A stretch of 37,764 nucleotides of DNA from NCBI RefSeq assembly GCF_027622855.1, contig NZ_JAPZVR010000012.1:84542-122305 (forward strand), written 5' to 3'. Shown piece after piece: positions 5,609-10,630 of the stretch (positions within the stretch are counted from its first letter, which is position 1; the number at the start of each line of letters is the position of its first letter). Origin of the DNA: Glycomyces algeriensis (lineage in GTDB: Bacteria > Actinomycetota > Actinomycetes > Mycobacteriales > Micromonosporaceae). The translations under genes were made by a program, and so were the position numbers. The notes under the pieces are model-generated. The model was not told the origin of the DNA, did no database searches, and saw nothing but the letters and a program-made list of their open reading frames with translations.

Positions 5609-7279
5609 CTAGGCGGACTCGGCGATCCAGTCCTCCACGACCGCCGTCATCGTCTCCAGCGGGATCGACCCGTTCGAGAGGACGCGGTCGTGGAAGTGCC
5701 GCAGGTCGAACGCCTCGCCCAGCGCCTCGCGGGCCCGCTCCCGCAGCGCCCCGATGTGCCGGCGCCCCACCATGTAGGCGAGCGCCTGGCCCGGCCACGC
5801 GATGTAGCGGTCGACCTCGTTGGCGATGTTGGCCTCCGAGAGCGCGGTGTTCTCGCGCATGTACGCGACCGCCCGCTCCCGCGACCACCCGAACACGTGC
5901 ATCCCGGTGTCCACGACCAGGCGGCAGGCCCGCCACGCGTCGAACGAGACCATGCCCAGCCGCTGCAGATCCCCGCTGTAGAGCCCGATCTCGTCGCAGA
6001 GCCGCTCGGTGTACAGGCCCCAGCCCTCGCCGAACGCGGTCACGTACGCGAACCGCCGGAACTGCGGCAGCCCCTCCAGGGTCTGGCCGAGCGCGAACTG
6101 GAGGTGGTGCCCGGGCACGGACTCGTGGAACGCGAGCGCCTCGTACTCGTACCGGGCGCGGCTCTCGGGCTCGTACGTGTTCACCCAGTGGGTGCCCGGC
6201 CGGGACCCGTCCGCGGCGGGGACGGTGTAGTAGGCGAGGGTCGAGCCCTTCGCGGCGGCCTCGGGGATCACCTCGACCGAGCAGGGCGCGATGTCGTAGT
6301 CCAGGAACGCCTTCGGCAGCGCCGCCTCGGCCCGCCGGAGCGCCTCGGTGACGTCGGCGAGGATCTCGTCCGAGCTCGCGTACCGCAGCGACCGGTCGTT
6401 GCGGAGCCGGTCGACGACCTCCGCGACATCGGCGGTCCCCAGGGCCCGCGCACCGATCTCGGCGAACTCGCCGCGCAGCCGCTCGACCTCCTCGAGGCCG
6501 ATCCGGTGGACCTCCTCGGGCGTCAGGTCGGTGGTCGTGAACTGCCGCGACGCGGCCGCATACCCTTCCAGCCCACCGGGAACGTGGCACACGCCGACCT
6601 CGTCGTCACCGCGCGAGACCGGCAGGAACTCGGTCTCCAGGGCCTCGCGCCACCGCTGAAGCGACGGCCGGACCCGCTCGGCGACCAAGGCGACGGCCTG
6701 CTCCTTCCAGCCGTCCACACCAGTGGGCGTGGGGCCCACCAGCGGATCGCTCTCCAGGTCGGTGCCGAGGTAGTCGTCGATCTGCTCGATGACCGCGAGC
6801 ACGCCGCGGCGGGTCTGGTGCCGCCCTTCGGCGGCGGCCTGCCGGTACCTGTCGAGCACGGCGTCGAAGTACCCGCCGAGCGAGCCGAGCCGCACGAGGT
6901 AGTCGCGGCTGCGCTGCTCCGAGTTCAGGCTCATGCGCGGCAGCGAGGAGAGCATCGTCGAGACGGGCCCGGTGATGGTGTTGGAGAGGCCCACCTCCCC
7001 GAGCGCCGCCTCGATGCTCGCCGACTGGTCGGCGGTGAGCCGCGCGAGCATGGAGTACGTGATCCGGTCCTGCCCTTCGAGGACGCGCGCGTCGATCGCG
7101 TCGAGACCCGTGCGGATCTCGGCCTGGTGCGCGAGCCGCGCCCGGTCGCCGTCCCGGCTCGGGTCCGGCAGCTTGTCGTCGTATCCCGCGATGCCGTAGA
7201 AGCTCGCCGACGTGGGGTTGTCGGCCAGGTGGAAGTCGAAGTACCGCTGCGCCAGCGCAGCGAGCTGAGGGTCGCCCAT
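5609..7279 (-). CDS. DUF885 family protein, putative zinc metallopeptidase
   Basis: A 556-aa DUF885 protein. The family signature HESVPGHHLQ lies at residues ~385-394, and a second conserved segment FGEGWGLYTE follows at ~416-425. The HExxxGH-like arrangement and downstream acidic residue suggest a metal-dependent hydrolase, and DUF885 is commonly regarded as peptidase-like, though substrates are poorly known. No signal peptide or membrane segment is evident, so it is probably cytoplasmic. The start is ATG at 7279 (MGDPQLAALAQRYFDFHL); no strong SD was seen. Length is typical for the family. It is monocistronic, with intergenic DNA on both sides, and no regulatory site was recognised upstream in the ~140 bases shared with the divergent NADAR gene. 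Confidence 0.88.
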   Translation of the reverse strand: MGDPQLAALAQRYFDFHLADNPTSASFYGIAGYDDKLPDPSRDGDRARLAHQAEIRTGLDAIDARVLEGQDRITYSMLARLTADQSASIEAALGEVGLSNTITGPVSTMLSSLPRMSLNSEQRSRDYLVRLGSLGGYFDAVLDRYRQAAAEGRHQTRRGVLAVIEQIDDYLGTDLESDPLVGPTPTGVDGWKEQAVALVAERVRPSLQRWREALETEFLPVSRGDDEVGVCHVPGGLEGYAAASRQFTTTDLTPEEVHRIGLEEVERLRGEFAEIGARALGTADVAEVVDRLRNDRSLRYASSDEILADVTEALRRAEAALPKAFLDYDIAPCSVEVIPEAAAKGSTLAYYTVPAADGSRPGTHWVNTYEPESRARYEYEALAFHESVPGHHLQFALGQTLEGLPQFRRFAYVTAFGEGWGLYTERLCDEIGLYSGDLQRLGMVSFDAWRACRLVVDTGMHVFGWSRERAVAYMRENTALSEANIANEVDRYIAWPGQALAYMVGRRHIGALRERAREALGEAFDLRHFHDRVLSNGSIPLETMTAVVEDWIAESA

Positions 7280-7417: not shown

Positions 7418-7987
7418 ATGTCTGCAGCACTCGTTCTGCCGCGCAGCGTCGACGAGGCCGTCGCGCTGACGTCCGCCGGCCAGACCTTCACGTACGTGCA
7501 CTTCTGGGGCCACTCGCCGAACGCCGACGGCAGCGCCGGCCGCGGCTGCCTGAGCCAGTGGTGGCCCGCGGCGTTCACCGAGGACGACCACCGCTTCGCC
7601 TCGGCCGAGCATTACATGATGGCGCACAAGGCGTGGCTCTTCGGCGACGACGCCGGCGCCCGGAAGATCCTCGCCGCAGGCCACCCGGGCGAGGCCCAGG
7701 CCCTGGGCCGCAAAGTCCGCGGCTTCGACCAGCGGACCTGGGAGGCCGAGCGGTTCGGCATCGTCGTGCGCGCGAGCCTCGCCAAGTTCGGTCAGCACCC
7801 GGACCTCTCGGCCTACCTCCTCGGCACCGGCGACCGCGTCCTGGTCGAGGCCAGCCCCCGCGACCGCATCTGGGGCATCGGCCTCGGCGAGACCGACCCG
7901 CTCGCCGCGTCCCCGCACACCTGGAAGGGCCTCAACCTCCTCGGCTTCGCCCTGATGCAGGCCCGCGCGCAGCTCGCCGACGCTTGA
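7418..7987 (+). CDS. NADAR family (YbiA-like) N-glycosidase
   Basis: A 189-aa NADAR-domain protein. Hallmarks are FWGH at ~29-32, LSQWWPAAF at ~45-53, ASAEHYMMAHKAWLFGD at ~61-77 (the conserved Glu is E64), KFGQHPDLSAYLLGTGDR at ~123-140, and SPRDRIWGIG at ~146-155 with the family Asp/Trp. Family members cleave N-glycosidic bonds in riboflavin-pathway intermediates (YbiA), and other NADAR proteins act on ADP-ribose-type conjugates, including ADP-ribosylated guanine in DNA. Which applies here is not visible. The start is ATG at 7418 with AAGGTGGG upstream. The TGA stop overlaps the next gene's ATG by one base (TGATG), so the two are translationally coupled. Confidence 0.88.
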   Translation: MSAALVLPRSVDEAVALTSAGQTFTYVHFWGHSPNADGSAGRGCLSQWWPAAFTEDDHRFASAEHYMMAHKAWLFGDDAGARKILAAGHPGEAQALGRKVRGFDQRTWEAERFGIVVRASLAKFGQHPDLSAYLLGTGDRVLVEASPRDRIWGIGLGETDPLAASPHTWKGLNLLGFALMQARAQLADA

Positions 7988-8463
7988 TGCGCATCGGCAT
8001 CACCGGCCACATGAACCTCACGGCCGCAACGATCGAGCTCGTCCGCACCGCCCTCCAGCGCGAACTCGAACGGTTCGATCCCGCTGACCTGACGGGCGTC
8101 TCCTGCCTCGCCGAAGGCGCGGACGCGATCTTCGCCCAGGCCGTCCTCGACGCCGGCGCCCGCCTCGAAGCGATCCTCCCCTCTCGCGACTACCGCGACA
8201 CCCAGGCGGGCCCGAGCCACCGGCCCGTCCTCGACGCGCTGACCGCCCGCGCGCACCGGATCAGCTACGTCGCCGAGACCTCCTCGGTCGCGGCCTACGC
8301 CGCCGCGAACGACGCGATGCTCGCCTCCGTCGACCGCCTCCTCGCCGTCTGGGACGGCCTCCCGTCCCCCAAACCCGGAGGCACCGCCGACGCGGTCGCC
8401 ACCGCCCGCGCCCTCGACATCCCGGTCACCGTCATCTGGCCCGAAGGCGCGCAACGCGGTTAG
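7987..8463 (+). CDS. SLOG/Rossmann-like putative nucleotide-binding protein
   Basis: A 158-aa single-domain protein. The N terminus MRIGITGHMNL looks like the first strand and glycine-rich loop of a Rossmann/SLOG fold. SCLAEGADAIFAQAVLDAGA follows, then ILPSRDY, then NDAMLASVDRLLAVWDG and TADAVATARALDIPVTVIWP. This order (strand-loop, G-AD-x-F helix, conserved polar loop, late D-LLAVWDG strand) resembles SLOG superfamily proteins such as YpsA, which are proposed to bind or process nucleotide-derived ligands. No assay-level function can be assigned. The start ATG at 7987 shares its A with the upstream NADAR stop codon, implying a stoichiometric partner. Its stop overlaps the stop of the convergent SDR gene by 4 bp, leaving no room for a terminator between them. 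Confidence 0.75.
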   Translation: MRIGITGHMNLTAATIELVRTALQRELERFDPADLTGVSCLAEGADAIFAQAVLDAGARLEAILPSRDYRDTQAGPSHRPVLDALTARAHRISYVAETSSVAAYAAANDAMLASVDRLLAVWDGLPSPKPGGTADAVATARALDIPVTVIWPEGAQRG

Positions 8464-9332
8464 CGCTGGTTCCCGGCCGGGGTGGTCGGGAGCGCGGCGA
8501 GGAGCGCTTCCGTCGCCGTCGCAAGTCGTTCGGCGGCAACGGGATCGAGGGAGCTCAAGGTGAGCGGGAGCGGGTCGCCGCGGTCGATCGCGGTGAGCGG
8601 CGCCGCCGGCGGATGGTCGATGAACCCGTGGATCGGCGCGACGGACCGCTCGACGGGGCGCCCGGCGAACCTGATCGAGCGGAGGAGGAGCCGGGCGGCC
8701 GCGGGCAGCGGGCCGAGGTCGCCGCTCCTGGTGAAGCCCGGGTGGTACAGGACGTACCGGGCGGGGTGCTCCGGCCGGGCGGCGTAGGCGACGCCGAGCA
8801 GATCGGTGGCGCGGCCGGCCTGCAGCTGCGCGGTGACGGTGCCGTACCGGTGCTCGAGTTGCATGTCGTCCCAGTGGATCGCGCCCTTCGTGGTGCCGAC
8901 GCCGGCGACGCTGACGATCACCGGGGCCTCGCTCCGCCGCAATTGCGGCGCGAGCCCGTGGCCGAGCAGGTACCGGCTCAGGTAGTAGAGGGCGAAGGTC
9001 TGTTCGAGCCCTTCCGGGGTCTCGGTGCGCTCGGGGGACAGCCGGTTAGCGAACAGGCACAGGGCATCGACGACCTGCTCCGCTGCGGCGATCTCCCGGA
9101 CCGCCGCCCGTGCGGCCTGCACGCTCGACAGGTCGGCTCTGATGAACCGCACCCGGTCGGCGGCCCCGATCCGGGCGGCCTCGGCGAGCAGCCGCTCCCC
9201 TTTCTCCGGGCTGCTGCCGAGCGCGATGACGCGATCGCCGCGTTCGGCCCGGGCGAGGGCCAGCGCGCGGCCCATCCCGTCGGTGCCGCCGCTGACGACG
9301 ATGACGCGGGGGTTCGGTTCCTGGTCTGGCAT
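8460..9332 (-). CDS. Atypical short-chain dehydrogenase/reductase family protein
   Basis: A 290-aa SDR-fold protein. The cofactor loop GGTDGMG is at residues ~15-21, followed by an acidic ADLSS motif at ~66-70. The usual NNAG is replaced by LFANR at ~93-97. The catalytic Tyr-x3-Lys is not intact where expected: the region after SVAGVG reads HRYGTVTAQLQAGRATDLLG, with Arg in the probable Lys position, so ordinary oxidoreductase chemistry is doubtful. The start ATG at 9332 has an excellent GGAGGAAA 5-6 nt upstream; an upstream in-frame GTG is unlikely. It is divergent from an HxlR regulator gene (74-bp gap), which is probably its regulator. It ends overlapping the SLOG gene tail-to-tail by 4 bp. 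Confidence 0.85.
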   Translation of the reverse strand: MPDQEPNPRVIVVSGGTDGMGRALALARAERGDRVIALGSSPEKGERLLAEAARIGAADRVRFIRADLSSVQAARAAVREIAAAEQVVDALCLFANRLSPERTETPEGLEQTFALYYLSRYLLGHGLAPQLRRSEAPVIVSVAGVGTTKGAIHWDDMQLEHRYGTVTAQLQAGRATDLLGVAYAARPEHPARYVLYHPGFTRSGDLGPLPAAARLLLRSIRFAGRPVERSVAPIHGFIDHPPAAPLTAIDRGDPLPLTLSSLDPVAAERLATATEALLAALPTTPAGNQR

Positions 9333-9364
9333 ATGCGGTTTCCTCCGGTGTGCGCCTTGCGAAC

Positions 9365-9378
9365 TACCATCGTCGGTA
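9365..9378. promoter_or_regulatory. Candidate HxlR operator in SDR/HxlR divergent promoter
   Basis: TACCATCGTCGGTA is an imperfect 14-bp palindrome (TACC...GGTA arms) centred in the 74-bp gap between the divergent SDR and HxlR genes. Position and symmetry suit a winged-helix dimer; no consensus match is claimed. Confidence 0.35.
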
Positions 9379-9406
9379 ACCCTGCGCCGCAGCACAAGGA
9401 GGCACT

Positions 9407-9835
9407 TTGCAGTCCGGTACGCACACGCATGTGCCTTCCATGGTCAGCGCGGCCCTCCCCGATCCGGTGCCGGCCGAGGAGTACGAGCGGTGCCCGGTCA
9501 CCGACGTGCTCCACCGGGTCGGCGACAAGTGGTCGATCCTGATCGTCGTGCTCTTGGGGAAGCGCCCGCACCGCTACAACGAGCTCCACCGCGGCATCGC
9601 GACCATCAGCCAGCGCATGCTGACCCGCACCCTCCGCGCCCTCGAGGCCGACGGCCTCGTGCACCGCGAGGTGTTCCCCACCAACCCGCCCAGCGTCGAG
9701 TACCGCCTCACCCCGCTCGGCCGGAGCCTCCTCACGCCCCTCTCCGCCCTCGCCGACTGGGCGGTGGCGCACCACCCCGAAATCGAAGCCGCCCGCGCCG
9801 AACACCTTCCGGTACAGAACGAACCGCGGCAGTAG
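9407..9835 (+). CDS. HxlR-family winged-helix transcriptional regulator
   Basis: A 142-aa HxlR protein. The family core runs from CPVTDVLHRVGDKWSILIV (residues ~29-47) through RYNELHRGIATISQRMLTRTL to EYRLTPLGRSLL. The Cys (C29) preceding the first helix is the residue that senses electrophiles or oxidants in several HxlR relatives. The start TTG at 9407 follows a strong AAGGAGG after only 4 nt; the next in-frame ATG is at ~9439 (MVSAALPDPVP), and a shorter protein starting there is possible. It is divergent from the atypical SDR, which it probably controls. Confidence 0.9.
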   Translation: MQSGTHTHVPSMVSAALPDPVPAEEYERCPVTDVLHRVGDKWSILIVVLLGKRPHRYNELHRGIATISQRMLTRTLRALEADGLVHREVFPTNPPSVEYRLTPLGRSLLTPLSALADWAVAHHPEIEAARAEHLPVQNEPRQ

Positions 9836-9917
9836 TCACCGTCTCCCGAACTGCCCGGAGAGCACTACGCTCGGTCGGAGACCGCGCCCCGCCGGCGCGG
9901 ACAGTGGGAGGCAGGAC

Positions 9918-10493
9918 ATGACCGAACTCGCGGGTGCCGCCGGGTACCTCTTCGAAGCCGGGATGCTGAAGCGCGCCCGGCGCTCCGGCTGGTGGGTCGC
10001 GGGGGTCCGCGACCCCGAGAGCATCGCCGAGCACAGCTGGCGGGCGGCGGTGACCGGCATGGCCATCGCGAGTCTCGAAGGCGCCGATCCGGCCCGGACC
10101 GCGCTGCTGTGCGTCCTCCACGACACCCCGGAGACGCGGATCGGCGACATCCCCAAGCTCGGGCAGGCCTACCTCACCGCCGCCGGCGCGCTCGACGTCG
10201 TGGCCGATCAGACGGCGCAGTGCCCGCCGCGCATGAGTGACACCATCCGCGACGCCGTCGCCGAGTTCGAGGCGGGGGAGACCCCGGAGGCGATCTGCGC
10301 GAACGACGCCGACAAGCTCGAATGCCTGGTCCAAGCCGTCGAGTACCGCCACCAAGGCGTATCGACCGTGCAGCCCTGGATCGACAGCGGCCTCGCCGCC
10401 CTCCGCACCGACACCGCCCGGCGCCTCGCCCGCGAGGTCCTCGACCAGGACCCCCTCGCCTGGGAGCAGGCCCGCCGCAACCCCGCGCCATGA
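9918..10493 (+). CDS. HD-domain protein, YfbR/HDDC2-like nucleotidase
   Basis: A 191-aa HD-superfamily metal-dependent phosphohydrolase. Visible metal and catalytic residues are H39 in SIAEHSWRAA, the H68-D69 pair in CVLHDTPETRIGDIP, and the late Asp in ANDADKLE (~D132). This spacing is typical of YfbR-type 5'-deoxynucleotidases and HDDC2 proteins, which remove the 5' phosphate of deoxynucleoside monophosphates. Substrate here is inferred from family only. The start ATG at 9918 has GGAGGCAGG upstream with good spacing. It is monocistronic, and its transcript meets the terminator of the opposing tRNA-Asn just after its stop. Confidence 0.85.
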   Translation: MTELAGAAGYLFEAGMLKRARRSGWWVAGVRDPESIAEHSWRAAVTGMAIASLEGADPARTALLCVLHDTPETRIGDIPKLGQAYLTAAGALDVVADQTAQCPPRMSDTIRDAVAEFEAGETPEAICANDADKLECLVQAVEYRHQGVSTVQPWIDSGLAALRTDTARRLAREVLDQDPLAWEQARRNPAP

Positions 10494-10503
10494 CCGGAGC
10501 ACG

Positions 10504-10535
10504 AAAAAGCCCGGACCGGCTTTCGCCGTCCGGGC
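10504..10535 (-). terminator. Rho-independent terminator of tRNA-Asn
   Basis: GCCCGGA (10509-10515) pairs with TCCGGGC (10529-10535), and CGGC with GCCG, around a TTTC loop (GAAA on the minus strand), with a single bulged C. On the minus strand the hairpin is followed by TTTTT (10508-10504). It lies 20 nt beyond the encoded CCA of tRNA-Asn and 15 nt past the HD-gene stop. Confidence 0.85.
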
Positions 10536-10554
10536 CGTTCCCACTGTCTCAAGG

Positions 10555-10630
10555 TGGCTCCCCAACTTGGACTCGAACCAAGAACCTGCCGATTAACAGT
10601 CGGCTGCTCTGCCAATTGAGCTATTGGGGA
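10555..10630 (-). tRNA. tRNA-Asn (GTT), CCA encoded
   Basis: Reading the minus strand, acceptor halves TCCCCAA and TTGGGGA pair perfectly. The D-arm (AGCTC...GAGC), anticodon arm (CGACTGTTAATCG, anticodon GTT) and T-arm (CTTGG TTCGAGT CCAAG) all fold. The discriminator is G and the gene encodes its CCA end (10555-10557). A terminator follows. No integrase or attachment duplication was found next to it. Confidence 0.97.

Follow-up and report, generated by a model that had tools for sequence, protein, structure and literature searches.

The window, i.e. the whole 37,764-nucleotide stretch of Glycomyces algeriensis DNA analysed here, carries on its plus strand two genes joined by a stop/start overlap. 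The first (7418 to 7987, 189 aa) is predicted to encode a NADAR N-glycosidase of the YbiA subfamily and ends with the TGA at 7985-7987; the second (7987 to 8463, 158 aa) encodes a YpsA-like SLOG protein and starts with the ATG at 7987-7989. Reading the plus-strand sequence directly at 7985-7989 gives TGATG, as a preliminary description of the locus had stated, and the single base shared by the two genes is the A. The start at ATG 7987 is common to most aligned SLOG relatives, which begin with MRIGITGH or a similar sequence.

On the 5' side, a DUF885 gene (5609 to 7279, minus strand; PF05960, E 2.1e-160) diverges from NADAR. On the 3' side, a short-chain dehydrogenase (SDR) gene (8460 to 9395, minus strand; PF00106, E 3.6e-13) converges with SLOG. 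It is followed by a gene for an HxlR-type regulator, divergent from SDR (9407 to 9835, plus strand; PF01638, E 3e-28), by an HD-domain (YfbR-like) gene (9918 to 10493, plus strand; PF13023, E 3.2e-25; PF12917, E 4.4e-7) and by a tRNA-Asn (gtt) gene identified with ARAGORN (10555 to 10630, minus strand). SLOG and SDR, facing each other, share bases of their stop codons at 8460-8463. The pair had been described as having no other partner, which is correct for its own strand.

Families of the two proteins

The first protein belongs to the NADAR family, as had been proposed: it matches the Pfam model PF08719 with 180.2 bits (E 4.6e-53), for a cut-off of 35.1. It also scores 155 bits against the NCBIfam model of the riboflavin-intermediate N-glycosidase, TIGR02464, above the equivalog-domain cut-off of 73.7, and such an activity is thus predicted. 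Residues were compared with those of the Phytophthora nicotianae NADAR (8bau), using the numbering of PMC11543638, to which the PDB chain adds two. Passages of that paper list E43, K50, R79, W89, R93, E125, D130 and W133 as contacting or catalytic. In the HMMER alignment, the ADP-ribose-contacting E43, K50, E125, D130 and W133 correspond to E64, K71, E144, D149 and W152 of our protein, and R79, W89 and R93 are also kept, as R98, W108 and R112. Y84, D86 and K75 are replaced by F103, Q105 and Q94.

Two of these positions bear on the subfamily. In the parts of PMC11543638 concerned, the YbiA subfamily is recognised by a Glu at the E125 position, where other NADARs have Asp or His, and the DarT1-linked NADARs (BC4488 subfamily) have an Asp there together with a conserved Lys at K75/K115. 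Our protein has E144 in the last strand and keeps E64 and K71, which places it in the YbiA subfamily. Like YbiA of E. coli (2b3w) and the P. nicotianae protein, it combines the Pfam family with the E, K, E, D and W residues, and it differs from YbiA by some 10 extra residues after the WG motif. E144 and Q94 set it apart from the BC4488 subfamily, as does the lack of a DarT match in a model search of the window's own genome, the model giving a match in 1 of 14 control genomes. A DarT-type antitoxin reading was rejected on these grounds. Among defence-related models, the match to the anti-phage NADAR model NF053876 is weak (35 bits, cut-off 240), and that to the PADLOC candidate PDC-M42C is good (E 1.3e-41). 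NADAR is most likely an N-glycosidase of the YbiA type that works on its own, and most genomes of the genus have retained it. By analogy with the family activities known from the literature, it would most likely clear ribosyl N-glycosides, i.e. riboflavin intermediates and/or ADP-ribosylated guanine.

The second protein is not captured by family models. It stays below the cut-off of every Pfam and NCBIfam model; its match to the Pfam YpsA model PF06908 is sub-threshold (E 0.072, 13.5 bits, cut-off 27.7). Of the HMM check proposed for both proteins, the NADAR half thus succeeded by a wide margin and the SLOG half did not. Other matches were at chance level (NCBIfam, E 0.048; PADLOC ShosA, E 0.055), as were both matches of a sequence search in the PDB. 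In PHROGs, weak similarity was seen to a 'GTP-binding domain' family (2.3e-5) and to one resembling DprA (4.9e-4).

The family is nevertheless a large one: of 3030 candidates, 1688 are homologues at E ≤ 0.001, and among the best 120 of the 1688, those with an organism name are all actinobacterial. The AlphaFold model is confident (mean pLDDT 95.8), and its top Foldseek match in the PDB is Bacillus subtilis YpsA (2nx2, E 1.9e-8, TM-score over the query 0.79). DprA, ShosA and LOG come next, with 21 matches in all at E ≤ 0.001. The homologues and the confident model matching YpsA together indicate that the gene is genuine and conserved and that its product adopts a SLOG fold, and the SLOG-like character claimed from motifs was borne out by fold. 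In a 45-member alignment of SLOG relatives, the invariant columns are G37, G44, D46, W122 and G124, and G44-x-D46 fits the GxD/E signature, a feature of YpsA described in part of PMC6459960. On the predicted model, the protein is a SLOG protein nearest to YpsA. We consider it YpsA-like rather than YpsA proper, because it falls below the PF06908 cut-off although the GxD motif is kept. It resembles 2nx2 in predicted fold and in this motif, but shares only 17% identity with it and has other gene partners.

LOG phosphoribohydrolases carry the motif PGGxGTxxE. This motif is absent here, so that a LOG-type phosphoribohydrolase was rejected, and binding or sensing would be favoured over LOG-type hydrolysis. 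The SLOG domain of Thoeris ThsA (7uxs) shares the fold and is a weak structural match (TM-score 0.49, rank 34); unlike it, our SLOG stands alone, and no sirtuin or TIR domain was found with Pfam in the 8 neighbouring frames scanned. The SLOG protein is most likely a sensor that would bind a small nucleotide ligand, perhaps of the ADP-ribose type.

Conservation of the adjacency and break in synteny

NADAR is present in 18 of 22 Glycomyces genomes and the SLOG family in 10 (E ≤ 1e-3), one of the latter through a weak and broken match. Positions were compared by eye, and the two genes adjoin in only one of the 22 genomes, the window's own; in the others each is on a contig of its own, except in G009, where some 23 kb separate them. 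We also searched 76 SLOG loci (the own locus in 3 copies, 8 duplicates and 65 others) with a NADAR profile, from which matches shorter than 120 residues or containing a stop were excluded; the flanks extended to 1.5 or 6 kb, or less where the contig ended. It found NADAR at the own locus only, and beside none of the 65 other non-redundant loci. These adjacency counts are drawn from a named genome collection that may leave out near relatives of the window's genome, and they refer to loci other than the closest SLOG homologues (79-82% identity), which are on short contigs and in Glycomyces tritici. Should NADAR also precede these copies, the pair would predate this species. The preliminary description had made its case depend on adjacency conserved beyond close relatives; with a single occurrence among the 22 genomes and none at the 65 other SLOG loci, the pair is not kept across diverged genomes, and a dedicated NADAR-SLOG cassette was rejected on this ground.

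Orthologues of NADAR 86-89% identical to ours are found in G015, G005, G007 and G002, with no SLOG in the 16-kb stretches examined. In G015 and G005, where identity is 89%, the HD gene starts 10 bp after the NADAR stop (L046, L047). In blastn alignments with the longer loci of these two genomes (L099, L100), homology to the window ends at the NADAR stop, at 7987, and resumes at the HD start, at 9917/9918. The window thus carries between NADAR and HD a 1.9-kb stretch, 7988 to 9917, which comprises SLOG, SDR, HxlR and 82 bp of intergenic DNA and is absent from that place in both relatives. The other side of NADAR is conserved, with DUF885 beside it in G015, G005, G007, G002 and G006 (L099-L103); it was not found in the G010 stretch (L104).

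The tRNA-Asn gene is the boundary of a variable stretch. It is also found in L099-L102, and not in the stretches L103 (G006) and L104 (G010). The interval from NADAR to the tRNA gene is about 2.6 kb in the window and about 6.8, 4.8, 6.0 and 2.9 kb in G015, G005, G007 and G002 respectively; among these five genomes, in which both genes were found, the gene content of the interval is partly shared and partly different. This stretch (7988-10554 in the window, and its counterparts in L099-L102) is a possible integration hot spot. SDR homologues with 68-74% identity were found in 5 other genomes of the genus, four of them on contigs without NADAR or SLOG matches. Since G010 (L104) has a similar SDR-HxlR pair some 5.9 kb away from its NADAR gene and no SLOG there, SDR-HxlR may predate SLOG in the neighbourhood.

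The presence of block 7988-9917 is most simply explained by insertion, as far as can be judged from sequence comparison; a deletion of the block in G015 and G005, or in their ancestor, could in principle have left the same pattern. Repeats at the block edges were sought as the trace of a mobile element, and the direct and inverted repeats listed are short and imperfect. No direct repeat brackets both edges, and this trace was rejected. SLOG and SDR-HxlR would have been inserted exactly between the NADAR stop and the HD start, within the variable stretch before tRNA-Asn. We infer this direction and these steps, and SLOG may have come with SDR-HxlR or separately. Owing to this landing site, SLOG is probably co-transcribed and translationally coupled with NADAR.

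Recurrent partners of the SLOG family

A census of upstream partners covered 62 non-redundant SLOG loci, one of them the window's own, and read 1.5 kb to either side of SLOG; it excluded duplicates as well as loci at which the match covered less than about 120 residues of the query. At the 61 other loci, the same-strand gene upstream of SLOG encodes an HTH-type regulator in 24 cases, a TrkA_N-RyR protein in 12 and neither in 25. The 24 regulators were identified with an iterated full-length profile, and four of them (L024, L026, L075, L081) are partial or displaced pieces. A Pfam scan of upstream proteins covered 44 of 52 loci, namely those with a usable upstream frame, some frames probably not being genes; it gave HTH_31, HTH_3, RyR and TrkA_N in 12 proteins each, and TPR models in at most 4 each. 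The regulators are long proteins, and the spacing between partner and SLOG is mostly -1 to 30 bases.

SLOG lies directly 3' of HTH-type regulators in several actinobacterial families, as at L001, L003, L004, L005, L006, L008, L010-L014, L077, L085, L087, L088, L097 and L098, likely forming a regulator-sensor pair. In a tree of the SLOG proteins, from which one of the 62 rows was dropped for a stop inside the matched stretch, regulator-linked copies are scattered and RyR-linked copies form one clade (98/99). The SLOG of the window groups with 5 other Glycomyces rows (84/99, the bootstrap being lower than the 95 set by the program), and in 4 of these the regulator is directly upstream. The regulator of L001, used as query, had no match in the window's own genome at E 1e-3. 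It matched all 5 comparison genomes, four of them at E ≤ 3.3e-115 beside SLOG, and G015 only distantly (2.3e-12). Given its nearest relatives and the lack of a regulator match in its own genome, the SLOG of the window probably once belonged to a regulator-SLOG pair and is now orphaned. SLOG genes without a partner are common enough, 25 of the 61 loci having neither of the two, and the loss of a partner here is our reading of these comparisons.

The second arrangement, seen at L128-L134, is a protein of about 600 aa with TrkA_N and a C-terminal RyR domain, followed by SLOG some 10-26 bp later. In these seven longer loci, the RyR protein and SLOG are the sole genes common to all, SLOG being found in 7 of 7 by tblastn and in 6 of 7 among the frames picked. 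In the two RyR proteins examined, the N-terminal part holds one or two hydrophobic stretches. The 12 RyR loci all belong to genomes assigned to the window's family. Among the papers listed in literature searches, none was evidently devoted to a SLOG-regulator or a SLOG-RyR pair; Burroughs et al. 2015 may cover such contexts.

Origin and meaning of the NADAR-SLOG pair

Taken with the families and the fold, the break in synteny, the lack of conserved adjacency and the other partners of the SLOG family are direct observations, and from these comparisons of sequence we consider it probable that NADAR-SLOG is a lineage-specific juxtaposition, in which a relocated SLOG sits behind a stand-alone NADAR, and not a dedicated module. 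The pair occurs together only here among the genomes checked, and its SLOG lies in a variable stretch beside a tRNA gene, so that there is probably no dedicated two-gene system. The SLOG of the window seems to have lost a partner, such as an HTH-type regulator or a TrkA_N-RyR protein.

If an older functional pair has been disturbed at this locus, it could be that of NADAR with the HD-domain protein, interrupted here by the SLOG-SDR-HxlR block. Their direct order, 10 bp apart, in G015 and G005 would fit this, and both proteins could act on nucleotides or nucleosides. However, the order is not widely kept, as no HD gene was found in the roughly 16-kb stretches that surround NADAR in G007, G002, G006 and G010, and we regard such a pair as rather unlikely.

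The preliminary description had proposed a sensor-hydrolase cassette. In its dedicated form this did not survive, since adjacency is not conserved, HD directly follows an 89% identical NADAR in two relatives and SLOG has other recurrent partners. Another version would be a real pair that arose by a recent exchange of partners, in which SLOG would bind an ADP-ribose-type signal and NADAR would hydrolyse this signal or remove ADP-ribose adducts. Through the exact overlap, SLOG immediately follows another gene here, as it does in many relatives, so that its capture into a new functional pair is possible. Members of the SLOG family are repeatedly found in second position, after various partners; the main catalytic residues of NADAR are also kept. 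In addition, combinations of SLOG and NADAR in DNA viruses, as neighbourhoods or as one polypeptide, are described as recurring in sections of PMC9503650. They involve the same two domain superfamilies, but they recur, whereas the pair of the window is found in one bacterial genome, with its SLOG in a stretch that relatives lack. Against the 21 other genomes of the genus and the 65 other loci without the arrangement, a block that also holds the SDR-HxlR pair and a genome in which no DarT was found, we judge this exchange unlikely.

A broader proposal, equally unlikely in our view, is that the SLOG family is a portable sensor of ADP-ribose signals, placed second in two-gene operons and exchanged between HTH-type regulator, TrkA_N-RyR and NADAR outputs. 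NADAR-SLOG would then be a freshly captured sensor-eraser module, and SLOG/RyR the bacterial counterpart of cADPR-RyR signalling. Parts of PMC9503650 and of a preprint (PMC13232231) link SLOG, NADAR and RyR domains to ADP-ribose derivatives, and the preprint reports, in the part concerned, that phage RyR-domain enzymes cleave 2'cADPR and 3'cADPR, degrading cADPR signals. By analogy, an ADP-ribose theme could conceivably be shared by NADAR, SLOG and the RyR-linked partners.

Finally, that NADAR is the antitoxin half of a DarT1-NADAR or YarT-YbiA type system, its toxin lost or elsewhere and SLOG incidental, is very improbable: YbiA-family NADARs can act as antitoxins, according to passages of PMC11125620, and the good PDC-M42C and weak NF053876 matches would fit, but Gln94 stands here in place of the lysine on which DarT1 antitoxin function has been linked to depend (K75 of the P. 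nicotianae protein, K115 of that of E. coli C7), the genome has no match in a search that covered DarT only, and the neighbours are DUF885, SLOG and SDR.

The juxtaposition that we favour carries a caution for the reading of operons: two genes with a common theme may overlap exactly at stop and start without forming a functional module, if the arrangement is missing from relatives. As a lead, the SLOG/RyR pair is better than NADAR-SLOG. The comparison also draws attention to a SLOG family of actinobacteria that is uncharacterised; its recurrent upstream partners, an HTH-type regulator and an RyR membrane protein, make the presumed nucleotide sensing directly testable.
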